From: Paludibacteraceae bacterium
GTDB lineage: Bacteria; Bacteroidota; Bacteroidia; Bacteroidales; Paludibacteraceae
DNA length: 64,000 nucleotides
Direction: 5' to 3'
NCBI GenBank assembly: GCA_017461505.1
Contig: JAFTXV010000007.1
Location: 496,001 to 560,000, forward strand
Made by a program: the position numbers and the translations under genes. Positions 3 to 11,686 of the stretch are shown piece by piece (the stretch's first letter is position 1; the number at the start of each line of letters is the position of its first letter). Below the pieces are notes generated by a model. The model did no database searches. It was not told the origin of the DNA and saw only the letters and a program-made list of their open reading frames with translations.

Positions 3-1241
3 GATGAACTTTTGCAAAAGATTTCGGCTATTCGCACAGATGGTAATATTCTTCCTTTGCCCGTAATGACTGTAGACACTATCGCCTTTGAAGATGGTGA
101 AGTATTGGTCGTAGAAGTTACACCTTCTTTATTACCACCTGTACGTTATCGAGGTCGTACTTTTATTCGTATCAGCGCACGCAAAGATTTGGCTACACGC
201 GAGGAAGAAGATTTGTTAGTAGAGCGCCGTACTGCCAATTTCCCTACTTTTGATGCTACTCCTTGCTTAGAAGCAACATTAGAAGATATCGATATTGAAC
301 AAGTACATTTATATCTTTCTAAGGCCGTTGATACAGAAGTATTAGCTGCTGATCAGCGAACGATAAAAAAACAGATGGCAGCTTTGCGTTTGTATGATCT
401 TCATTCTGATCACCCTACTTTTGCTGCAATTATTTTGTTTGGTAAAAATCCGAACTATTTTCTATTTGGTAACTATATACAATATGTTCGTTTTAAAGGA
501 GAAACTAACGCATCGGATATATTAAATCAGTATGAATTTAAAGGAGCGTTAGCAACATTATTACCTAAATTAGATACCTTTGTAGATACTGCTCTAATAC
601 AAAGTCGCCCCATTCCTGTTTCTGTGTTAAAGGAGAAGAATTTTTACAATTATCCTCAATGGGCAGTGCGTGAATTACTAATGAATGCAGTAATGCACCG
701 TGATTATAAGACTCATACACCAACTAAATTATATCAATATAGCAATCGCATAGAGATTATTAATGCTGGTGGCTTATATGGAAATGCACGTCCAGAAAAT
801 TTTCCTAATGTCAATGACTATCGAAATCCTATTGTAGCAGAAGGTATGAAAACATTAGGTTATGTTAATATGTTCAATAGAGGTATTTCACGTGTACAGA
901 AGTTGTTAGAGGAAAATGGTAATGGCAGAGCAACATTTGTAGTTGATCGTATTACTACTTTTGAGGTACATATTAAAGATGCCTCATTGGTGGAATATAC
1001 AGATATAGAAGAAACAGATACAAAGGTTCATAAGACAAGTAGAAAAGAACAAAAACAACTCACTATAAAGAAAATATTACAACTTATATCCAATAATCCA
1101 CAAATTACTCGTAAGGAAATAGCGATAGCTATCAATATATCATTGAGTGGCTTAGATTGGTATATTAATTATCTCAAGAAAGAGAAAATCCTTAATCGTA
1201 AAGGACAACCGAGGAATGGTCAATGGATAATAATTGAATAA
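3..1241 (+). CDS. ATP-binding protein with AlbA_2/Schlafen-type domain and C-terminal HTH (5' partial)
   Basis: The frame is open from base 3, so the gene starts upstream of the window; about 412 residues are visible. The first part reads as the end of an AlbA_2 (Schlafen AAA_4) domain, including VRYRGRTFIRISARK. The middle matches the GHKL-like ATPase domain usual in this family: RELLMNAVMHRDY, then IEIINAGGLYG. The C-terminal 55 residues form a winged HTH (ITRKEIAIAINIS, then a YINYLKKEKIL recognition segment). Such proteins are common in mobile and defence regions and are often called transcriptional regulators, but their activity is poorly known. A phased palindrome array follows directly at 1247-1399 and could be its operator; that is inference. 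Family call is fairly sure, role is not. Confidence 0.8.
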   Translation, partial: DELLQKISAIRTDGNILPLPVMTVDTIAFEDGEVLVVEVTPSLLPPVRYRGRTFIRISARKDLATREEEDLLVERRTANFPTFDATPCLEATLEDIDIEQVHLYLSKAVDTEVLAADQRTIKKQMAALRLYDLHSDHPTFAAIILFGKNPNYFLFGNYIQYVRFKGETNASDILNQYEFKGALATLLPKLDTFVDTALIQSRPIPVSVLKEKNFYNYPQWAVRELLMNAVMHRDYKTHTPTKLYQYSNRIEIINAGGLYGNARPENFPNVNDYRNPIVAEGMKTLGYVNMFNRGISRVQKLLEENGNGRATFVVDRITTFEVHIKDASLVEYTDIEETDTKVHKTSRKEQKQLTIKKILQLISNNPQITRKEIAIAINISLSGLDWYINYLKKEKILNRKGQPRNGQWIIIE

Positions 1242-1246
1242 TATTT

Positions 1247-1399
1247 ATCACAATAAAATTATATTTTACTATAATAAAATTGTTTTTTACTATAGTAAAT
1301 AACATTTACTATAATAAATCAAGTTTTACTACAATAAAGTAAATTTTACCACAGTAAAATACATTTTACTACAATGAAAGTTTATTTTATAATGATAAA
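1247..1399. repeat. Eight-unit, about 20-bp phased palindromic repeat array (iteron-like)
   Basis: Units resembling ACTAYARTAAA, usually preceded by TTTT, start at 1247, 1268, 1289, 1308, 1328, 1348, 1368 and 1389. The spacing is 19-21 bp, about two DNA helical turns. The unit approximates the palindrome TTTACTATAGTAAA; the third unit (1289-1299) is closest to perfect. The outer units are degenerate. The array fills most of the 272-bp gap between the HTH ATPase gene and the nuclease-helicase gene at 1514, ending about 60 bp upstream of its promoter. Phased palindromes suggest cooperative protein binding, as in operators, parS-like sites or plasmid iterons. Confidence 0.8.
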
Positions 1400-1459
1400 G
1401 TATATTACAATTGATTTATCTATTATTAACAGAGTCTCAATCAACGAAATACCAAAATA

Positions 1460-1492
1460 TTTGCATTAAATGCAAAAAAAGTTGTATCTTTG
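1460..1492 (+). promoter_or_regulatory. Bacteroidota-type promoter of the DUF2075 gene
   Basis: TTTG at 1460-1463 and TATCTTTG at 1485-1492 are separated by 21 bp, matching the Bacteroidota primary sigma pattern. The start codon lies at 1514, leaving a short leader. Confidence 0.7.
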
Positions 1493-1513
1493 CACTTTAA
1501 TTAAAGAAATACC

Positions 1514-3568
1514 ATGACTAATCGTTATTTTTATCAATCTGACATTGCTACATTCCTTGCTGAAGATACGAATACCATCTTCGGACAAATGTCGCGTGCA
1601 GATGAGATGGATACAGCTTCCACGCAAAAATTCGCATGGGAGCAAGAAATAACGCTGATGAAACAGGCACTCGCCTCCTATTCTACCGAGCAAGGATGGA
1701 TCCTTTTTGAATACACAATACCACGTTTAGGAAAACGAATAGATGTCGTAGTACTACTCCGAGAGCGCATATTGGCTATAGAATTCAAAGCAGGAGAAGA
1801 AAACTTTTTGCACCAAGATGTGGATCAAGTGTTAGACTACGCTCTCGACTTAAAGAACTTTCATCAAGGTAGTGCAGACCGTGCTATCATCCCTATCTTA
1901 GTTGCTACTGAAAGCAAACAACACTCGACGTTATGTCAATTATCGCATTACGATGACGATATCTACGAGCCTTTACTGACGGATGCAGAGCACTTGTCCG
2001 ATATCTTTCAACTCGTCCTCGCTGAAAATATCCCTTCCAAAAGTTACAACATTGCTCTTTGTGATTGGGCACGCAGTCGTTATGCTCCCACACCCACTAT
2101 TATTGAAGCTGCTCGCTCACTCTATCTCAATCATAGCGTGGCTGATATAACCAAAAGCGAAGCAGAAGGCGCTCAACTGAATAGCACTACCAAATATGTG
2201 CAAGAGGTTATAGCCCAAACGAAGGCGAACGGAACAAAAAGTATTTGCTTTGTAACAGGTGTGCCTGGGGCGGGCAAAACCTTGGTTGGACTCAACGTTG
2301 CTGTACAACAAGAAGCAGATCAAGACCTTGCGGTATATCTTTCAGGAAATGGTCCGTTAGTTCAAGTACTGACAGAAGCATTAACGCGTGATAAACAGGC
2401 ACAAGAGAAAGCTAAAGGTAACAAGATAACAAAGAAAGAAGCTGAACGCGAGGTTAAACGATTCATCCAGATTATCCACCGTTATCGAGATAATATGCTC
2501 AATAAAGTTAAGGTCGTTGATGGCGCTTTAGAGATTGATCCAACAAAGGAACTAAAGGATGTGACGGCTGGCTATGGCGAAGTGGAAAATATCGCTATTT
2601 TTGACGAAGCCCAACGCTCATGGGATAAAGAGCATATTGCCAACTGGCTCAAGCGCAAAAAAGGATTTGCAGATTTCCCAATGTCTGAGAGCGAATTTCT
2701 TATATGGTCACTTGACCAACGACCAGACTGGGCTGTTATTGTCTGTTTAGTCGGTGGTGGGCAAGAAATCAATACAGGAGAAGCAGGCATTGGCGAGTGG
2801 ATTCGCGCATTAAATGAAGCTTTCCCTCAATGGAATATATACATATCAAGCCAATTAACTGCCAAAGAATACGCAGAAGGACATGTCAAAGATCTACTGG
2901 CTAATAATCCAAAAGTCACTTATTCTGATCACTTACATTTGGGGGTATCTATGCGCAGTTTCCGTGCTGAGAGTTTGTCGCATATTGTACATTATATTCT
3001 TGATGGAGATATTGATAAAGCTCGAGACACTTACACTCAGATAGCAGATCGTTATCCCATCGTTTTAACAAGAGATTTAGACAAGGCCAAAGCTTGGCTT
3101 CGTGAGCGTGCACGCGGAAACGAACGCTACGGATTACTCGTTTCATCTAAGGCTTATCGCCTCAAACCATTGGCTATTGATGTTCGTTGCAAACCGGACA
3201 CTGTCCATTGGTTCTTGGATGATATCAATGATGTACGTTCTTCATTGTTCTTGGAGGATGCAGCTTCTGAATTTGACGTACAAGGCCTTGAGTTGGATTG
3301 GACTTGCCTTGTATGGGATGGTGATTTACGTCGTCAGGATAACGATTGGGCTTTCTATGAATTTAGTGGCGGAACCAAATGGAATAGAATCAACAAGGAC
3401 GACCGCAAAGCATACTTACTCAACGCCTATCGTGTACTGCTCACTCGTGCACGTCAGGGAATGGTGATTTGCGTACCGGAGGGATCAAACGAAGACCCAA
3501 CCCGCAATCATGCGTTCTATAATGGAACATATGAGTATTTGAAACAATTAGGAATAAAGGATATATAA
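1514..3568 (+). CDS. PD-(D/E)XK nuclease-like domain fused to DUF2075 DNA/RNA helicase
   Basis: 684 residues with an ATG start. The N-terminal part has a restriction-nuclease-like core: RIDVVV (Asp77) followed by AIEFKAG (Glu90, Lys92), the usual D...ExK arrangement. A P-loop GVPGAGKT (249-256) and Walker B IAIFDEAQ (about 360-367) belong to the DUF2075/Schlafen group 3-like helicase domain, which fills the rest. Proteins of this architecture occur in defence islands and may cleave or unwind foreign nucleic acid; that role is inference here. It has its own promoter and lies between the phased repeat array and the methyltransferase operon. The end of the gene is separated from the next promoter by only about 30 bp. 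Confident on domains, not on biological target. Confidence 0.82.
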   Translation: MTNRYFYQSDIATFLAEDTNTIFGQMSRADEMDTASTQKFAWEQEITLMKQALASYSTEQGWILFEYTIPRLGKRIDVVVLLRERILAIEFKAGEENFLHQDVDQVLDYALDLKNFHQGSADRAIIPILVATESKQHSTLCQLSHYDDDIYEPLLTDAEHLSDIFQLVLAENIPSKSYNIALCDWARSRYAPTPTIIEAARSLYLNHSVADITKSEAEGAQLNSTTKYVQEVIAQTKANGTKSICFVTGVPGAGKTLVGLNVAVQQEADQDLAVYLSGNGPLVQVLTEALTRDKQAQEKAKGNKITKKEAEREVKRFIQIIHRYRDNMLNKVKVVDGALEIDPTKELKDVTAGYGEVENIAIFDEAQRSWDKEHIANWLKRKKGFADFPMSESEFLIWSLDQRPDWAVIVCLVGGGQEINTGEAGIGEWIRALNEAFPQWNIYISSQLTAKEYAEGHVKDLLANNPKVTYSDHLHLGVSMRSFRAESLSHIVHYILDGDIDKARDTYTQIADRYPIVLTRDLDKAKAWLRERARGNERYGLLVSSKAYRLKPLAIDVRCKPDTVHWFLDDINDVRSSLFLEDAASEFDVQGLELDWTCLVWDGDLRRQDNDWAFYEFSGGTKWNRINKDDRKAYLLNAYRVLLTRARQGMVICVPEGSNEDPTRNHAFYNGTYEYLKQLGIKDI

Positions 3569-3596
3569 CGTATAAAAAAATTAAACTTTTCTTGAG

Positions 3597-3634
3597 ATAC
3601 TGACAACTTTTAGCAGTTTGGTGTAATAATTTTG
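3597..3634 (+). promoter_or_regulatory. Promoter of methyltransferase operon, shared with RhuM-Fic gene
   Basis: TAATTTTG at 3627-3634 is the -7 element. The 38 bp 3597-3634 recur at 12586-12623 with only three or four mismatches, upstream of the RhuM-Fic gene. An imperfect dyad, ACTG-N2-AA-N3-TT-N2-CAGT, lies at 3599-3617, in the place where an operator would sit. There is no clear TTTG at the usual distance. Confidence 0.6.
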
Positions 3635-3681
3635 CCGCCGATTTCAAAAATCGAGTATATTTAACTTTAAAAATTACGGTT

Positions 3682-4743
3682 ATGAATACGGCACAAACAT
3701 TACTAATTCCGTTTGAAGAGACCAATTTTGTATCAGGTTTTAAAGAAAGAATCGCTAGATTATCAAACATTAGGAACATATTAAAACAAATCTGCAATCT
3801 AAATAGTATTGTTTTAGATGATAAACTTGAAATAACAAACCAGCATGTAATTATGTGCAAAGCAAAACCGTTTGTAAAATGGGCCGGTGGTAAGGGATTA
3901 TTGTTACCTCAGTTAGAGGGGCTTCTTCCACCAAACTTTGACAAGTTGCAAAATGTAACTTATGTCGAACCATTCGTGGGTGGTGGTGCTATGTTATTTC
4001 ATATGCTCCGTAATCATCCTAATATTACTAGAGCAGTTATTAATGATATTAATCCCGATCTGATTCATTGCTACGAGTTAATAGCACATCATCCCGATAG
4101 ACTCATTTCAAGACTAAGAGAACTTGAAAATAATTACTATCATCTACATGATAGGCGTGATTTGTACTATGCCTATAGAGATCAGTTTAATCGTGAGGAT
4201 ATTCATCCAGACGAAAGAGCTGCTTTGTTTATATTTCTGAATCATACTTGTTACAATGGATTGTATCGCGTTAATGCAAATGGTAAGTTCAACGTTCCTC
4301 ACGGCCGATATAAGCATCCATTAATTTGCAATGAGGAGCTGATAATGAAAAATCATGAATTGCTCAATGCTGTTGAATTGATCATTTGTCCTCCTGGTGA
4401 TTACAAAAAAGTAGTACGCAGATTGTCAGTAAATCATCCTAATTTTGTATATTTTGATCCTCCATATAGACCATTGCTAAATGAAACTAACTTTAAAGAG
4501 TACTCGAATGTGCCTTTTAATGATGCACAACAAGAGGAATTAAAAGAGTTTTGTGACCATTTAAAAGAAAGGCATTGTATGATAATGGTCAGCAATTCGG
4601 ATAGCCTAAATTTGGATGGAACATCATACTTTGAACAATTGTACGAGGGGTATGATTTCCATAGAATATTAGCGCCTCGTTTCATTAATGCGGATCCTGT
4701 AAAACGCAAGAAACGGACAGAAGTATTAATACGAAATTATTAG
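3682..4743 (+). CDS. D12-class DNA adenine N6-methyltransferase (Dam-like)
   Basis: 353 residues. Motifs are in the order expected for the alpha-class Dam/DpnIIA family: KWAGGK (66-71, motif X), EPFVGGGAMLF (96-106, motif I, SAM binding), NDINPDL (121-127), NGLYRVNANGKFNVPHG (192-208) and the catalytic DPPY (259-262). Members often methylate GATC or related sites, but the recognition sequence cannot be read from this protein. About 58 residues precede the usual family start; an ATG at 3853 gives the shorter standard form, yet the upstream start is in frame after a promoter, so I keep it. First gene of a tight six-gene operon (4-bp gap to the next gene). In this context it would supply the self-marking activity of a restriction-like system. 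Confidence 0.9.
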   Translation: MNTAQTLLIPFEETNFVSGFKERIARLSNIRNILKQICNLNSIVLDDKLEITNQHVIMCKAKPFVKWAGGKGLLLPQLEGLLPPNFDKLQNVTYVEPFVGGGAMLFHMLRNHPNITRAVINDINPDLIHCYELIAHHPDRLISRLRELENNYYHLHDRRDLYYAYRDQFNREDIHPDERAALFIFLNHTCYNGLYRVNANGKFNVPHGRYKHPLICNEELIMKNHELLNAVELIICPPGDYKKVVRRLSVNHPNFVYFDPPYRPLLNETNFKEYSNVPFNDAQQEELKEFCDHLKERHCMIMVSNSDSLNLDGTSYFEQLYEGYDFHRILAPRFINADPVKRKKRTEVLIRNY

Positions 4744-4747
4744 AACC

Positions 4748-5194
4748 ATGAAAAAGATACTTATCCAAGCGAACAATCTAGACACAGTAGTAGATGTTTT
4801 CATGTACATCTATATGCATCCAGAATGTACACATCAAGATGTTGCTGATTATTGCGGATTTACACTCCGACAAGTTCAGTATTATGCAAATGCTTGTAAG
4901 TATCTTGACTTGGTAAATGAAGATTGGAGCAAGACTGCTCTTGCTATTGACATATTTACGAATCATCCTGCAGAGGTGAAGGATAGAGTGTATGCGCGAA
5001 TTATTTCCGATGAGGTCATGGGACAAATATTTGCAAGAATGATACTTCTTCCAGATGGCTCGCATAATGCATATGCTGTAGATGTCGTTAAAGAATATTT
5101 CCCTGGTTATAGCGATGCGGTATATGAGCGTCGAGCTGACAATATTGTAAAATGGTGTAAAAAAATAATTTCGTATATTAAACTTAAAGGATAA
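4748..5194 (+). CDS. Small winged-helix protein (DUF7226-like)
   Basis: 148 residues. The segment around residues 24-55 reads as a winged helix: CTHQDVADYCGFTLRQVQYY followed by ANACKYLDLV. The rest is mixed helical with no catalytic motif visible. Similar small wHTH proteins occur beside type II restriction genes and nuclease operons, where they may bind DNA for specificity or regulation. It lies 4 bp after the methyltransferase stop and 5 bp before the DGQHR gene, so it is almost certainly co-transcribed and co-translated. The exact family name is uncertain. Confidence 0.65.
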   Translation: MKKILIQANNLDTVVDVFMYIYMHPECTHQDVADYCGFTLRQVQYYANACKYLDLVNEDWSKTALAIDIFTNHPAEVKDRVYARIISDEVMGQIFARMILLPDGSHNAYAVDVVKEYFPGYSDAVYERRADNIVKWCKKIISYIKLKG

Positions 5195-5199
5195 GCCAT

Positions 5200-7512
5200 A
5201 TGATTACTCTTACAGAAAAACAGGTTCAAGAGATTAAGTCCCACATGCTTCACGAAGAAGATGCGTTGAGGATAAAGTTTAAAGGCAAAAATACTACCTT
5301 GGAAACTATTTCTGTCCCACACAATGAAGTAGAGGATTATGAAAAAAGAGGTTATATAATTGGTACTTCTACGGCAAGAAGAACCAAGATGAACAAACTC
5401 AAACCTCATGGATTACAGTTAGAGGATGATATATGGTGTATGTTTTACAAGTTAGGATTTCGTAAGTTAAATGCTGACGAACATCTTGTAGTTCAATGGG
5501 GACCTAATTCTACGGATACTCAACAATTAGATGTGGTAGCTGTAGGAAAAGAAGCAATATTCGTCGTAGAATGTAAGGCTGCAAATCAACCGAAAACAGC
5601 AAATTTTAAGGACCAATTAAATAAGATCGAGCAATATAAAGCTGGAGTTACAGATGCGTTGCAGCAAATCTATGGTCATGATAAGAAGGTGAAGTTTATC
5701 TTTGCAACACGAAACTATCGCTTTGCAGATGATTCAGAAGATAAGAAGCGAATGGAAAATATGGAAATTTTTCATTTGAATGATAACTCATACAACTATA
5801 TCAACAATCTTATCAAATCTTATAAAGAATCTGTTATTTATCAGTTCTATGCACTAATGTTTAAAGATGAGTTAATAAGTGATGATAGGCTAAAAATACC
5901 AGTTTTAAGAGGTCAGATGGGAGTACATTCTTATTATATATTCTCCATAGAGCCTAGTACTTTATTGAAGATCGGGTTTGTGCTCCATAGAACAAGAGTA
6001 AATGATTCCATGGCTCCTACATATCAACGACTTTTAGTTCCTTCCCGCTTAAAAGGTATTACTAAATTTATAGATGGAGGAGGCTATTTTCCAAACTCGA
6101 TAATTATAAATTTTGCTTCTAACAAAGATAAAAATCTCAATATTGAGTTCTCACCAATCAAAGCTAGTCAACTAGACTCTAACTCTGAATTTGGTTTCCT
6201 TTATATACCTAATGCATATGGCATTGCATATATAATTGATGGACAACACCGTGTGTATGGATATGCTCAATCAAATTACAAGGATTTAAATCAAATTCCT
6301 GTTGTGGCATTTGAAAATATGGCATCAGAGGAGCAGTTGAAGATTTTTATGGAGATTAACGAAAATCAAAAATCAGTTAGTCCAAGCCTACGTCTTGATT
6401 TAGAGGAGGATTTATATTGGTCATCTCCTCGTTTAGACTCCCGTATGAAAGCTTTGCGCTCATCAATTATCAAGCATTTATCAGGTGATTCCAACTATAT
6501 TCTTTATAATATGATTTCTGTTGGTGAGGATAATGCTAAGCTCGCATTTAAGCCTTTTAGTACAGCTTTAATCCATTCCGGATTACTGCCCAAAGCAACA
6601 AATTCACAATGGACTGCAGATATGGACACATGTATTTATGATACGCATAACATGGACATAAGTCGTGCGATGGTTAATGCTCGTAAGGAGATTGTAGCTT
6701 TTATAGATAAGTGCTATACTGTAGCAAAAAAATATATGAAAGAGGATGTCGCTGATACCTTCTTGTTTTCAAACCGTGCAACATATGCTTTTATCACTTT
6801 TATAGGTTCTTTGCACAAGCATTTAGTACTGACAAATCAAATCCAACAGCATGCTCCTAATAGCGAAAAAATAGATGTAATAAGCAAGTATATTATTACA
6901 CTGTCAGAGAAATTAAATAATCTGTCTGATGAAGATAATAGAAAGATTACAGGCGTCTTAGGACAGGGAGCTGATACATTTTGGTTGCGTTCGTATCAGA
7001 ATCTTGTAAGTAAAGTCCATTCTGATTATCAACCAGAAGAACTGATTGAATGGAGAGAAACCCAAGACCAGTCTATACAAGATGCGGGTAAAAAAATGAA
7101 GGAAGAGATATTAAGTCTTGTAAGTAAATTATTGGTTAGCAGTCTTCGAAAAGTTTATGGAGATATCTGGGAACGAAATGTGAGAACGATAAAAAATCAA
7201 GTAGAAACCAGAATCATTGAAACTTATGGAGATGAAAAGGGCTGGGATATTTTAGATAACGGAGAATGGACTGACTATTTAGATGTAGCAGAATGTAGAG
7301 GGATTATATCGGATAATTTCTCAAATGAGATATTCCAACAACGGTTCGCTATACAAACTGAAGATAATGCCTTTAAAACGAAAAAAGAAAAGCTTAATTG
7401 GATGACCTACATTGTTGTGCAATCTGGTAAAAAAGCGATTCCTCTTACTCAATCTGACTTGAATAGGTTAGAGTTGATAAGTAGCCATCTATCTCAATTT
7501 GAGGAAGAATAA
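5200..7512 (+). CDS. PD-(D/E)XK nuclease fused to DGQHR (DndB-like) domain
   Basis: 770 residues. Residues about 75-170 form a nuclease-type fold: Glu75, QQLDVVAVGKEA (Asp111), then VVECKAA (Glu124, Lys126), so the D...ExK site looks intact. Residues about 270-420 hold the DGQHR signature (IIDGQHRVYGYAQ, DGQHR at 347-351) and the linked MEINENQKSVSPSLRLDL block, as in DndB and Dpd-type proteins. The C-terminal 350 residues are helical and unrecognised. DGQHR proteins are known from phosphorothioate and 7-deazaguanine DNA modification systems; no dndCDE, ssp or dpd genes are seen here, so the partner is instead an adenine methyltransferase. Its stop overlaps the helicase start by one base (TAATG), indicating translational coupling. 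Domain calls are good; function is open. Confidence 0.82.
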   Translation: MITLTEKQVQEIKSHMLHEEDALRIKFKGKNTTLETISVPHNEVEDYEKRGYIIGTSTARRTKMNKLKPHGLQLEDDIWCMFYKLGFRKLNADEHLVVQWGPNSTDTQQLDVVAVGKEAIFVVECKAANQPKTANFKDQLNKIEQYKAGVTDALQQIYGHDKKVKFIFATRNYRFADDSEDKKRMENMEIFHLNDNSYNYINNLIKSYKESVIYQFYALMFKDELISDDRLKIPVLRGQMGVHSYYIFSIEPSTLLKIGFVLHRTRVNDSMAPTYQRLLVPSRLKGITKFIDGGGYFPNSIIINFASNKDKNLNIEFSPIKASQLDSNSEFGFLYIPNAYGIAYIIDGQHRVYGYAQSNYKDLNQIPVVAFENMASEEQLKIFMEINENQKSVSPSLRLDLEEDLYWSSPRLDSRMKALRSSIIKHLSGDSNYILYNMISVGEDNAKLAFKPFSTALIHSGLLPKATNSQWTADMDTCIYDTHNMDISRAMVNARKEIVAFIDKCYTVAKKYMKEDVADTFLFSNRATYAFITFIGSLHKHLVLTNQIQQHAPNSEKIDVISKYIITLSEKLNNLSDEDNRKITGVLGQGADTFWLRSYQNLVSKVHSDYQPEELIEWRETQDQSIQDAGKKMKEEILSLVSKLLVSSLRKVYGDIWERNVRTIKNQVETRIIETYGDEKGWDILDNGEWTDYLDVAECRGIISDNFSNEIFQQRFAIQTEDNAFKTKKEKLNWMTYIVVQSGKKAIPLTQSDLNRLELISSHLSQFEEE

Positions 7513-8939
7513 TGTATAAAGAATATTGTAAAATAGACCATTCTCTTCGTCCTTATCAACAAAAAGCGAAGGAGCAAATCTTCAGCGCATGGGATGAGTG
7601 TAATAATGTAATGTTCCAGATGCCAACTGGAACTGGAAAAACGCGTCTATTTTCATCTATTATCCGGGATATTAAGAATTGGGGAGTGTTCAATTCTACA
7701 GAGGTACGCATTTTGATTATTGCACACCGTATTGAGTTGATCGACCAAATTAGCGAAAATCTCGAACGATATAAAGTATCCCATGGTATCATCGCAGGAG
7801 GTAAGCAAAGAGATCTTAGGCACTCTGTTCAAGTTGCTTCTGTGCAAACTATAACGCACAAAAGCAATCAAGACCTAGCAGAGGGACTAAATGTCGATTT
7901 TATCATTATTGATGAAGCGCACCATAGTGTAGCAAACTCCTACAAGAAGTTATGGCAGTTCTACCCTAATGCAAAGAAGTTAGGAGTTACGGCTACCCCA
8001 TGGCGTATGAATAATAGAGGTTTTCAAGATATCTTTGATACCCTTATTTTATCAGAACCCATTATCAAGTTTATAGAGCAAGGATGGCTTGCCCCATATA
8101 ATTATTATTCTATAAACAATAACAGTTCCATACAACGAGATATTAACTCAATAACCGAGTTTGATATAGAAGGTGACTATAAGATCTCTGCTCTTGAAAA
8201 TTGCATGGATACTTTTAGTGTGCGTGCACAATTACTTAATAGTTATCTTAAATTTGCTAAGGGAAAGAAAGGAATAATTTATTCGATAAGCCGAAAGCAT
8301 AGTGATCATATATGTGAGGAATTTAGAAAGGCGGGGGTTAATATTGTACGTATTGATAGCCTTACGCCTAAGGATGAAAGAAAAATCTATGTTGATAGAT
8401 TTAAACAAGGGCTTATTGATATTATTGTAAATGTTGATATTTTTTCGGAGGGATTCGATTGTCCTGATATTGAATTTATTCAATTAGCCCGTCCCACGAA
8501 GTCTTTGGTAAAATACCTCCAACAAGTAGGGCGTGGTCTTCGTCCTACGAAGGATAAAAGTCGTTGTATCATACTAGATAATGTGGGCTTACATTTTACT
8601 TTTGGTTTACCTAATGCAGAAAGAAATTGGGTAGAATCCTTTGAAGGTGATTTGACAAATGTTCGTCACAAGAGTAGTTCGTCTGTCCTGCTACCAGTAG
8701 AGGAATTAGACGGTGAGTTTGCTGAGGGTGATGACGAGATGTTATTGATCGAAGGTGTAGAAAATAATTTAATTCCCGAACCTGAAGTAAACTGGAAGGA
8801 GGAAGATGATGCACTATTGCGTATGCTTTGTGAACGAAAGTGTCCAATAGAGGTTATTGCTAGTGTGTTTAAAAAAGATACACCAACTATTGAAGAAAGA
8901 ATAAATACTTTGGATATAAAGTTTGAGATTATAAAGTAA
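7512..8939 (+). CDS. Superfamily 2 DEAD/DEAH-box helicase
   Basis: 475 residues. Helicase motifs in order: RPYQQKA (Q-like region), MPTGTGKT (37-44, Walker A), IIIDEAHH (DEAH at 134-137), VTATPWR (159-165, motif III), FSEGFDCP (311-318, motif V) and QQVGRGLRP (337-345, motif VI). This is the RecA-like pair found in restriction-type translocases (the type I/III HsdR or RAD25 group), with no nuclease domain of its own. A short tail after residue 390 is acidic and ends in an HTH-like stretch (CPIEVIASVFKKDTPTIEERI). It is the fourth gene of the operon, sharing one base with the preceding stop and 3 bp from the HNH gene. It probably moves or opens DNA for the neighbouring nucleases. Confidence 0.88.
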   Translation: MYKEYCKIDHSLRPYQQKAKEQIFSAWDECNNVMFQMPTGTGKTRLFSSIIRDIKNWGVFNSTEVRILIIAHRIELIDQISENLERYKVSHGIIAGGKQRDLRHSVQVASVQTITHKSNQDLAEGLNVDFIIIDEAHHSVANSYKKLWQFYPNAKKLGVTATPWRMNNRGFQDIFDTLILSEPIIKFIEQGWLAPYNYYSINNNSSIQRDINSITEFDIEGDYKISALENCMDTFSVRAQLLNSYLKFAKGKKGIIYSISRKHSDHICEEFRKAGVNIVRIDSLTPKDERKIYVDRFKQGLIDIIVNVDIFSEGFDCPDIEFIQLARPTKSLVKYLQQVGRGLRPTKDKSRCIILDNVGLHFTFGLPNAERNWVESFEGDLTNVRHKSSSSVLLPVEELDGEFAEGDDEMLLIEGVENNLIPEPEVNWKEEDDALLRMLCERKCPIEVIASVFKKDTPTIEERINTLDIKFEIIK

Positions 8940-8942
8940 TTT

Positions 8943-9776
8943 ATGTTCATATACAGCAAAATAGTAGATAAATCTGTTCTTTGGGATGGTTTTTCCATTC
9001 CGTTGCAATACCACAAGATATTCCACATGCTTGTTCCTGCAATCAGCGAACATGGCGAAAATGCGAATGTCAAGATATTGATCGATGGAGAGTTCTATGA
9101 TGCGCAGTTGAAGAACATAGCATTTGACCAAGATACATGGGACAATCATGTGGATATTATTCAATTTAGATATTCACCTCAATCTCCTTTGTCAAGGAAA
9201 CTACGGGAGATATTCTCCATCTCAAACCAATACATCCAACAAGAACGAGCTAATCGTCAGCCTGGGGATAGAAGGCGCATCATTGTGCCAGAGGAATTGC
9301 AGGAGTTTATTTACATAAATGCAACTGCCCAAAGCAATGTTTTTGCACTTGATTATGTGACATGTAATGAGGAACAAGCACTCAGACATGATATCAAATC
9401 AATATCTGAAGATGTTTTTGAAACGCTATCAATAGACTCACTAAAGGATGAAAATACGGGCTTCTCTCAAGCAATTCGTAAGGTTCGAAAATTGGACAAA
9501 TCAATAGGCGACACTTTGAAGAAGTTCTATGACTATCGTTGTCAACTTACAGGAGAGAGGATAGGGGAACCATATAGCGCACATGTCGTGGAGGCGCATC
9601 ATATTGTACCTTTTACCGAGAGTTTGAATAATGATGCAAGCAACATCGTTATTGTCAATCCGACCTTTCATCGTATCATACACAAAGCGAAACCAGCGTT
9701 TGATAACGCCACATTATCCTTTAAGTTCCCAAATGGGGTAGTGGAGAAATTGAAACTAACAGATCATTTGAGATAA
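8943..9776 (+). CDS. HNH endonuclease
   Basis: 277 residues. The C-terminal third carries an HNH site: RCQLTGERIGE (Cys200, with TGE rather than a second Cys), VEAHHIVPF (His219/His220), NDASNIVIVNP and FHRIIH (His243, His247). The N-terminal 170 residues are unrecognised and probably bind DNA or partners; they include an arginine-rich stretch ERANRQPGDRRR (101-112). The gene sits in the operon between the helicase and a protein that resembles the N-terminal domain of other HNH restriction enzymes, so the two may work as one enzyme in two pieces. The nuclease call is firm; specificity is unknown. Confidence 0.82.
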   Translation: MFIYSKIVDKSVLWDGFSIPLQYHKIFHMLVPAISEHGENANVKILIDGEFYDAQLKNIAFDQDTWDNHVDIIQFRYSPQSPLSRKLREIFSISNQYIQQERANRQPGDRRRIIVPEELQEFIYINATAQSNVFALDYVTCNEEQALRHDIKSISEDVFETLSIDSLKDENTGFSQAIRKVRKLDKSIGDTLKKFYDYRCQLTGERIGEPYSAHVVEAHHIVPFTESLNNDASNIVIVNPTFHRIIHKAKPAFDNATLSFKFPNGVVEKLKLTDHLR

Positions 9777-9779
9777 TTC

Positions 9780-10226
9780 ATGCCTATGCTCCTACACTAC
9801 ACATATGCATTCTCTCATCTCAATCGCAACAAGTTGAGAGGCGAAGTGGCTCCACATAAGCCAGTACTGCTATTGGCAATAATTGACTACGTAGAGGAGA
9901 AATTGCTAACAGCAGAAGGTCGCGAACAACTTAAACAGCCCATCCCATTCCGACCAGAACTGCAAAGTAAGTTTAATCATAGATGGACAAAGCATGTACA
10001 TTCAGAGGTATTCAAACCGTCGTTCGTAAATCCCATCATTCACATGCAAAACGAGCCATTCTATCACCTAATTCCATACGCCGACCGTGTATATGATGGG
10101 ACACACTCTATGCTTGCAGTGGAAAGTGCATTCCAGGGCATCCAACTCAATAGCGAACTCATGCAGCTCATCATCCAGCAAGATACAAGACAACAACTCC
10201 GACAACTGCTGATAGATATGATATAA
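9780..10226 (+). CDS. Stand-alone N-terminal domain of an HNH-type restriction endonuclease family
   Basis: 148 residues. FSHLNRNKLR followed by APHKPVLLLAIIDY (24-37) is the signature of the N-terminal domain of predicted HNH restriction endonucleases (COG3440-like), which normally continue into a C-terminal HNH domain of similar size. Here the protein stops after LRQLLIDMI, at the natural domain end, so it is either a deliberate one-domain protein or a truncated gene. The HNH half is supplied by the gene just upstream, 3 bp away. The last 60 bp including the stop codon are duplicated at 11078-11146, which marks this end as a recombination point. Confidence 0.65.
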   Translation: MPMLLHYTYAFSHLNRNKLRGEVAPHKPVLLLAIIDYVEEKLLTAEGREQLKQPIPFRPELQSKFNHRWTKHVHSEVFKPSFVNPIIHMQNEPFYHLIPYADRVYDGTHSMLAVESAFQGIQLNSELMQLIIQQDTRQQLRQLLIDMI

Positions 10227-10235
10227 TCCCTCCAT
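10167..10235 (+). repeat. 69-bp repeat, copy 1 (tail of the preceding gene)
   Basis: This stretch, the last 60 bp of the COG3440-like gene plus 9 bp after its stop codon, recurs at 11078-11146 with a single A/C difference. Copy 2 has no gene upstream, so copy 1 is the likely source or both come from a lost longer duplication. Confidence 0.9.
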
Positions 10236-10865: not shown

Positions 10866-10924
10866 TAAAAGCCCCCTCCTCACATACTCTCACACCCACA
10901 CATATCCACACACACTCACATACA

Positions 10925-10980
10925 GCTTGCTCCTTTTTTTTACGAGAAAGCAGCAAACTCAACAAAAAAAAGGAGCAAGC
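10925..10980. repeat. Long hairpin element 1 of 5
   Basis: Arms GCTTGCTCCTTTTTTT and its complement flank a loop containing AAAGCAGCAAACTCAAC. The stem is about 16 bp. Preceded by CACATACA, as in copy 5. Confidence 0.85.
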
Positions 10981-11077
10981 CAAAGATGAAATCATAAAAA
11001 CCGCATCCACCACATATAAAGCCACAGAAAATACAACTAATTTGCACTTTTCTCTCCAATATGACAAGAAACATCAC

Positions 11078-11146
11078 CTCATCATCCAGCAAGATACAAG
11101 CCAACAACTCCGACAACTGCTGATAGATATGATATAATCCCTCCAT
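11078..11146 (+). repeat. 69-bp repeat, copy 2
   Basis: Differs from 10167-10235 by one base. It carries the last codons and stop of the COG3440-like gene without any open frame before them, so it is a dead fragment. Confidence 0.9.
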
Positions 11147-11293
11147 CTCCACACAAAGAAACAATTCCACCATTCTCACACAAAATTCATACACACTCAC
11201 ACATATCCTCACACACCTATACATACCCACACATACCCATACATATCTATCCCCCCACACATACTTATACATATTTATACACACTCACACATA

Positions 11294-11349
11294 GCTTGCT
11301 CCTTTTTTCTCACAAAAAGCAGTAAACCAAACAAAAAAAAGGAGCAAGT
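11294..11349. repeat. Long hairpin element 2 of 5
   Basis: Same arms (GCTTGCTCCTTTTTT and complement) with loop CTCACAAAAAGCAGTAAACC. Preceded by CACACATA. Confidence 0.85.
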
Positions 11350-11481
11350 CAACAACAAAGAATAATCCCTCCATCTCTACACAAAGAAACAAATCATACA
11401 TACCCATACACATTTATACACACTCATACATATTTATTCACACCCACACATTCTCACACATACTTAATATACTCACATATA

Positions 11482-11536
11482 GCTTGCTCCTTTTTTCTCA
11501 CAAAAAGCAGCAAACCAAATACAAAAAAGGAGCAAG
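11482..11536. repeat. Long hairpin element 3 of 5
   Basis: Same arms with loop CTCACAAAAAGCAGCAAACC, almost identical to element 2. Preceded by CACATATA. Confidence 0.85.
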
Positions 11537-11631
11537 TCAAAAAGCAGTTGTTCGGAAATTCCAAACAAGCATGTAAGACTTAGTGGTTCCACACCCACTT
11601 CCCTCTCCCCTCCCCATAAAGTTCATATATA

Positions 11632-11686
11632 GCTTGCTCCTTTTTTCTTAAAAGAATGAAGCCTCTGCGACAAAAAAGGAGCAAGC
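11632..11686. repeat. Long hairpin element 4 of 5
   Basis: Arms conserved exactly, but the loop is different in sequence (CTTAAAAGAATGAAGCCTCT...). It ends a few bases before the promoter of the TIGR04076-wHTH gene, so it could also affect that gene. Confidence 0.85.

Follow-up and report, generated by a model that had tools for sequence, protein, structure and literature searches.

What kind of system is encoded by six tightly packed genes in a 64,000-nucleotide stretch of Paludibacteraceae bacterium DNA (GenBank assembly GCA_017461505.1, contig JAFTXV010000007.1, positions 496,001 to 560,000; hereafter the window), where a Dam-type adenine methyltransferase precedes a protein that joins a nuclease domain to a DGQHR domain? 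We find that the operon probably represents a restriction-modification defense of a form not yet described, and on sequence evidence the apparent six-gene system shrinks to a two-gene core, the methyltransferase and the DGQHR protein, accompanied by a clade-specific superfamily 2 (SF2) helicase and exchangeable add-ons. The six open reading frames (ORFs) lie in series with intergenic gaps of 4, 5, −1, 3 and 3 bases (Table 1), in keeping with an initial annotation of the locus as six same-direction genes spaced by −1 to 5 bp. Profile searches likewise agree with its calls of a methyltransferase, a winged helix-turn-helix (wHTH) protein, a nuclease-DGQHR protein and an SF2 helicase. Its start at 3597 falls upstream of the first gene, whose ORF begins at 3682, and its single promoter does not stand out among the 23 promoter-like sites counted over the two strands, where chance alone would give 29.9.

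Table 1. Genes of the operon (window coordinates) and the three loci that carry a radical S-adenosylmethionine (radical-SAM)-like gene (locus coordinates)
Feature	Source	Coordinates	Strand	Profile or sequence match and remarks
Dam-type (D12) N6-adenine DNA methyltransferase (core)	Window	3682..4743	+	PF02086 E 2.6e-54; TIGR00571 E 6.9e-79
DUF7226 winged-helix-like protein (accessory)	Window	4748..5194	+	DUF7226 E 4.8e-14
NERD-type PD-(D/E)XK nuclease + ParB-fold DGQHR domain + helical C-terminal part (core)	Window	5200..7512	+	
SF2 helicase/translocase, RadD/ResIII type	Window	7512..8939	+	PF04851 (ResIII) E 6.7e-31
HNH nuclease-like protein (accessory)	Window	8943..9776	+	PF13391 (HNH_2) E 0.0018, 18.5 bits, below cut-off of 21
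Stand-alone sulfur-binding-domain-like (APHKP) protein (accessory)	Window	9780..10226	+	phmmer to SBDHga1 (8h0l) E 1.9e-6
NERD-DGQHR + radical-SAM-like gene	L064	8890-14023		
NERD-DGQHR + radical-SAM-like gene	L065	8914-14405		radical-SAM gene on other strand
NERD-DGQHR + radical-SAM-like gene	L088	4956-8481		

The core recurs in other genomes, which places the arrangement beyond chance. Two-sequence alignment of the DGQHR protein identified 19 loci on GTDB genome contigs (L008–L026, of which L014 is the locus of genome G003) that together with the window form our first set of 20. Wider searches of 101 relatives, 395 genomes of the class, 395 of the phylum, viral contigs, plasmids and phages added 14 full-length loci, namely three in Bacteroidota (L066–L068), at least nine on viral contigs and two on plasmids, whereas four phage records contained the DGQHR part alone. 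The resulting 34 loci comprise the first set, L066–L068, L027–L031, L081, L085, L087, L088, L064 and L065; the contigs L080, L082–L084 and L086 were already counted as L027–L031, and plasmid matches H2, H3 and H5 and DGQHR proteins without the nuclease part were left uncounted. These totals are lower bounds that lean toward close relatives, since the genome contigs were scanned with two peptide patterns drawn from a pair of closely similar proteins and the viral matches listed are a minimum. A Dam-type methyltransferase lies beside a full-length NERD-DGQHR protein at 31 of the 34 loci, window included, with L081 scored as positive despite an in-frame stop in its methyltransferase. The pair is found in Bacteroidota, Paenibacillus and viral contigs and in both gene orders, and the methyltransferase is adjacent throughout the first set (20/20; at L013 as the C-terminal part alone, at a contig end). 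The synteny that the initial annotation proposed as a test is thus present for the methyltransferase and the DGQHR nuclease, but the remaining genes are not constant and the six do not behave as one unit: the helicase belongs to one clade, the DUF7226 (wHTH) gene occurs at 9 of the 20 first-set loci, and the pair of HNH and last genes is confined to the window (1 of 34 loci).

The methyltransferase is most similar among solved structures to DpnM (2dpm, E 1.4e-48) and Dam. Its true start is likely position 3853 (MCKAKPF...), because from there the protein lines up with Escherichia coli Dam. The DPPY motif is invariant in all 28 rows of an alignment that includes E. coli Dam, and the window protein retains the residues with which Dam contacts GATC.

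The second core protein divides into a nuclease region (residues about 1–225), a DGQHR domain (about 238–395) and a helical part (about 450–770), which we do not put forward as a new fold. The DGQHR domain passes the superfamily cut-offs of both TIGR03187 (E 2.2e-32) and PF14072 DndB (55.9 bits versus a cut-off of 29.1). At the N terminus, a NERD match above its cut-off (E 1.1e-5) bears out the nuclease domain proposed initially; a further match to the Card1 nuclease (E 3.6e-5) falls below its own cut-off, and a Pfam profile search found no HNH domain in this protein. The predicted structure has a ParB-type fold around the DGQHR motif and a PD-(D/E)XK fold at the N terminus. When run against PDB sequences, the DGQHR profile returned chance-level matches only. 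The putative nuclease residues Gln109, Asp111, Glu124 and Lys126 are kept at 20 of 20 loci of the first set.

The helicase is present at 19 of the 34 loci and at all of the first set except Paenibacillus L025; at L028, L081 and L085, whose contigs end soon after the core, a following helicase could be missed. Its motifs QMPTGTGKT, DEAHH and GRGLR are invariant in 17 of 17 sequences. In a maximum-likelihood tree of DGQHR proteins from 26 of the 34 loci, a branch with support 100/98 sets apart all 12 sampled helicase-bearing rows, and for this reason we take methyltransferase plus DGQHR protein as the broader unit, to which the helicase was probably added later. Another branch (support 100/100) has on one side the four rows in which the gene order is reversed. 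Across 17 loci, pairwise distances correlate strongly between methyltransferase and DGQHR protein (r 0.84), DGQHR protein and helicase (0.96) and methyltransferase and helicase (0.83), with none of 2000 permutations as high.

The domain content and the synteny of the core support the initial idea of a modification-plus-nuclease operon. As the best explanation, which we hold with moderate confidence, host DNA would be shielded by the methyltransferase, and DNA that lacks the mark would be cut by the DGQHR nuclease under the control of its ParB-fold domain. The methyltransferase would generate N6-methyladenine on host DNA, probably in GATC, as its conserved catalytic and base-contact residues suggest. 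The DGQHR protein would then act as the restriction subunit, with the N-terminal PD-(D/E)XK domain cutting DNA and the ParB-fold domain serving as a nucleoside triphosphate-dependent switch that methylated DNA either keeps off or releases. A mark-reading role for this protein is plausible from the parallel with SspE, whose DGQQR domain is described as responding to phosphorothioate (PMC9646914; papers cited by PMC number are represented here by excerpts). In the Bacteroidota clade, the SF2 helicase may add translocation, bringing the enzyme closer to ATP-dependent type I/III restriction, and the wHTH, HNH and sulfur-binding-domain-like proteins could be interchangeable accessories that help to contact the target or provide additional cutting. 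If this explanation is true, it would introduce a new restriction enzyme architecture, PD-(D/E)XK plus ParB-fold DGQHR, into methylation-based immunity and would tie the phosphorothioate- or deazaguanine-linked DGQxR proteins (DndB, SspE, DpdB) to ordinary adenine methylation. The question of what is sensed by DGQHR domains could then be tested directly by comparing dam− with dam+ E. coli.

Several observations weigh against this explanation. Methyltransferases outside the window vary at Lys9 and Tyr138, though Arg124 and Pro134 are kept. The nuclease motif deviates in 4 of 19 rows of a wider alignment, with L067 lacking the glutamate and Lys126 replaced by arginine in L065 and L066 and by threonine in L064, and across a 29-row alignment Asp111 and Lys126 are merely nearly invariant; some distant DGQHR members may, judging from these substitutions, lack cutting activity. 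Foldseek by itself gave no match at E ≤ 0.001 for the DGQHR protein. Correlated trees can arise from shared operon inheritance alone. Finally, full-length relatives are rare, occurring in 2 of the 101 relatives, in 3 of 395 genomes from the class and in 3 of 395 from the phylum, the window's genome included in each case and only two candidates scored per genome in the class and phylum counts.

Two alternatives assign the DGQHR protein a different role, and both are improbable to a similar degree. The protein could carry out a modification-dependent, type IV-like attack, in which modification of invader DNA triggers the nuclease and the methyltransferase has a regulatory role or competes for sites. 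The ParB-type-fold relatives GmrSD and SspE do respond to modified DNA, and the family of the sulfur-binding-domain-like protein includes phosphorothioate readers, as far as the excerpts of PMC4619093, PMC9646914 and PMC6224610 describe them; the best PADLOC match of the helicase, moreover, is mREase_IV. However, the presence of one type of methyltransferase beside the gene at 31 of 34 loci is what self-protection would look like, the host's own DNA would be attacked if the mark of that methyltransferase triggered the nuclease, and the draft genome has no DndC match. We assign an equally small chance to the DGQHR protein being an accessory like DndB or DpdB that regulates or helps to target modification, its nuclease domain acting as a backup suicide effector. 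The superfamily matches above, the deviant nuclease motifs of L064–L067 and the description of DndB as a regulator (PMC10853773, in the part available) are in line with this idea, but the protein fails the equivalog cut-offs of DpdB and DGQHR_dnd_1 and the nuclease residues are fully kept in the first set. It is very hard to believe that a solitary Dam, a regulator and unrelated nuclease genes were heaped together by chance in a defense island: the HNH and sulfur-binding-domain-like genes do stand together at the window locus only, in an area resembling a hotspot shared with another genome carrying other genes, but the co-occurrence of methyltransferase, DGQHR protein and helicase at 19 of 20 first-set loci, and of the first two beyond them, contradicts this for the core, if not for the last two genes.

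The three loci without a Dam-type methyltransferase (L064, L065 and L088; tblastn was negative over the fetched stretches) all contain a radical-SAM-like gene, which is adjacent in L088 and nearby in the plasmids L064 and L065. The Pfam scores for radical SAM are below the cut-off in L065 and L088, and the plasmid annotation reads radical SAM. Further genes on both plasmids encode ATP-binding proteins, a PIN-like protein and another DGQHR protein. On the tree, the radical-SAM label requires two changes, a number as low in 32 of 500 sets of shuffled labels. Such changes may be two gains or a gain and a loss, and in L064 and L065 the gene is near the DGQHR gene without adjoining it; the proposal that this partner arose at least twice was therefore dropped as too strong. 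The substitution of a radical-SAM-like gene for the methyltransferase points to a possible unknown DNA modification. It is conceivable, if unlikely, that NERD-DGQHR proteins are general reader-nucleases with interchangeable DNA-marking enzymes, mostly Dam-type and in some cases a radical-SAM enzyme that makes a novel DNA mark; if so, the radical-SAM-marked variant would constitute an undescribed kind of DNA-modification restriction. As a separate observation, L079 (7481-9430) and L014 (4418-5866) have a 168-residue N-terminal domain in common (49% identical). At one locus it belongs to the Dam-type methyltransferase; in the other genome, within a defense-like locus, it belongs to a protein in which we read a radical-SAM-like cysteine stretch that has no Pfam support.

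The genes around the core are variable. For DUF7226, nothing was found in the open-access literature, and the wHTH profile gave chance-level matches only against PDB sequences. The HNH call of the initial annotation is half sustained, in that the H-H-N-H residues are visible in the sequence but the HNH_2 profile score is below its cut-off. Relatives of this protein outside its own genome amount to two weak partial matches in 295 genomes and five weak plasmid matches, with none in the viral scan. The last gene had been considered a split piece of an HNH enzyme; it instead resembles sulfur-binding domains. Residues 4–133 align with the solved domain 8h0l, no Pfam match was obtained, and in a two-sequence comparison the ORF resembles the N-terminal domain found on a fused helicase in another genome (E 3e-10). 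L078 (1927-3954) encodes a fusion of this kind, in which the SF2 helicase is 46% identical to that of the window. Given this similarity and the fusion of such a domain to a close helicase relative, we conclude that the last gene is not merely a split HNH piece. The sulfur pocket of ScoMcrA is given as His116, Arg/Lys117, Tyr164, Pro165 and Ala168 in the excerpted text of PMC6224610. By our mapping, His26, Lys27 and Pro85 of the last ORF are kept, with Asn84 in place of Tyr164, a tyrosine that is not universal in homologues, and His88 in place of Ala168. Relatives of the last protein are limited to one plasmid match and three other genomes of 101, with none in the viral scan.

Other loci contain further genes. 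A second methyltransferase, of the N6_N4 type, occurs at 5 of the 20 first-set loci (L008, L009, L010, L012 and L018), in L018 between the DGQHR and helicase genes; GIY-YIG/DUF4357 and Hypoth_ymh proteins occur at 2 of 20, and a 237-residue protein without a Pfam match at 2 of 20. In L085, methyltransferase-like genes stand on either side of the DGQHR gene (4017-4793 and 7261-8169), the upstream one ≈25% identical to the family. The viral contigs L090, L091, L092 and L096 have a cassette of a methyltransferase, a short DGQHR protein (342–353 residues) and a 293–310-residue protein; Pfam assigns the methyltransferase to N6_N4 in the two checked (L091 and L096) and gives no match for the third protein in three of three checked.

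The GC content is 33–44% over the first 16 kb of the window and mostly 45–53% beyond. Just upstream of the operon (1514-3568) lies a Schlafen group 3 helicase protein corresponding to the PADLOC candidate PDC-S41 (888 bits), a relative of which is found downstream of the operon in L024. A 72-base segment that runs across the 3′ end of the sulfur-binding-domain-like gene (10164-10235) is copied downstream at 11075-11146 with 97% identity, and genome G039 has a similar remnant (81% over 31 residues); together they are possibly the scar of a gene exchange. The region after the operon (10867-11656) contains a 34-base sequence four times (82–100% alike) as well as CACACATA-rich repeats. Flanking genes, which by eye encode a small protein resembling a regulator and another resembling a metallophosphoesterase, are common to the window's genome and G039 (L007 6090-8085 and L079 9805-11239), and the neighboring defense-type genes differ. 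The same flanks with different defense-type genes in G039 suggest that the operon area is an insertion hotspot. GATC is scarce in the window (147 versus 280.5 expected), from which we draw no inference because GGCC and CCGG are even more under-represented.

Searches of PADLOC 2023, NCBIfam and Pfam gave no named system for these genes, consistent with the initial view that the gene order was unfamiliar, and the open-access full-text literature yielded no description of the pair of Dam-type methyltransferase and NERD-DGQHR protein. In PADLOC the methyltransferase scores best against generic type II or orphan methyltransferases, the DGQHR part against DpdB and the helicase against helicases of type IV/PbeA/DpdF-like kinds. 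As first noted, Dnd, Dpd and Ssp modification genes are absent among the eight proteins scanned (window 12-10226), where the only Dpd signal is a weak likeness of the DGQHR protein to DpdB and of the helicase to DpdF, and DndC (TIGR03183) has no match in the host genome (draft, 82% complete).

Like DndB and DpdB, the window protein has a DGQHR domain of the TIGR03187/PF14072 superfamily, but it scores below the equivalog cut-offs of DpdB (54.7 bits, cut-off 300) and DGQHR_dnd_1 (78.6 bits, cut-off 450), contains a fused nuclease domain and has no Dnd or Dpd partner among the scanned proteins. DndB and DpdB themselves are not known to have a nuclease domain. Surveys of Dnd and BREX neighborhoods from 2024 and 2026 cover DndB, described as a regulator, NERD nucleases and the sulfur-binding domain as a wHTH (PMC10853773, PMC12839542, both in part). 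A 2025 survey of ParB folds describes, in the part available, a DndB-like protein that binds ATP and GTP and fusions of ParB-fold domains to N6_N4 methyltransferases that are enriched in prophage regions (PMC12704722); a link between ParB folds and methyltransferases as such is therefore already known, whereas here a methyltransferase of the D12/Dam type is encoded by its own gene, and it is a nuclease domain that the ParB-fold protein contains. The last ORF shares with sulfur-binding domains (ScoMcrA, SBDHga1) its alignment to 8h0l and, by our mapping, His26-Lys27 and Pro85 at pocket-type residues, but it stands alone, has Asn84 at the place of Tyr164 and comes from a draft genome with no DndC match.

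SspE, whose nuclease is of the HNH type, gives a Foldseek match to the DGQHR protein with an E of 1.0. SspE also combines a DGQQR domain and a nuclease in one chain, and both SspE and DndI operate with a DNA-modifying system, according to excerpts of PMC9646914 and PMC11662687. In these proteins the nuclease is C-terminal (HNH in DndI), whereas here it is an N-terminal PD-(D/E)XK domain and the modifier is an adenine methyltransferase, in a draft genome with no DndC match. The type IV enzymes GmrSD and BrxU, the latter a weak fold match (Foldseek E 0.12), similarly pair a ParB-type NTPase domain with a nuclease, but they use DUF262 and HNH domains in one or two chains (PMC4619093, in part). 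The operon resembles type II restriction-modification in that a D12 methyltransferase with the base-contact residues of Dam adjoins a PD-(D/E)XK gene, with catalytic residues intact in both partners: DPPY in all 28 aligned methyltransferase rows and the nuclease residues throughout the first set. It differs from type II systems in that a ParB-fold DGQHR domain and a helical part share one chain with the nuclease, and an SF2 helicase gene lies alongside in this clade.

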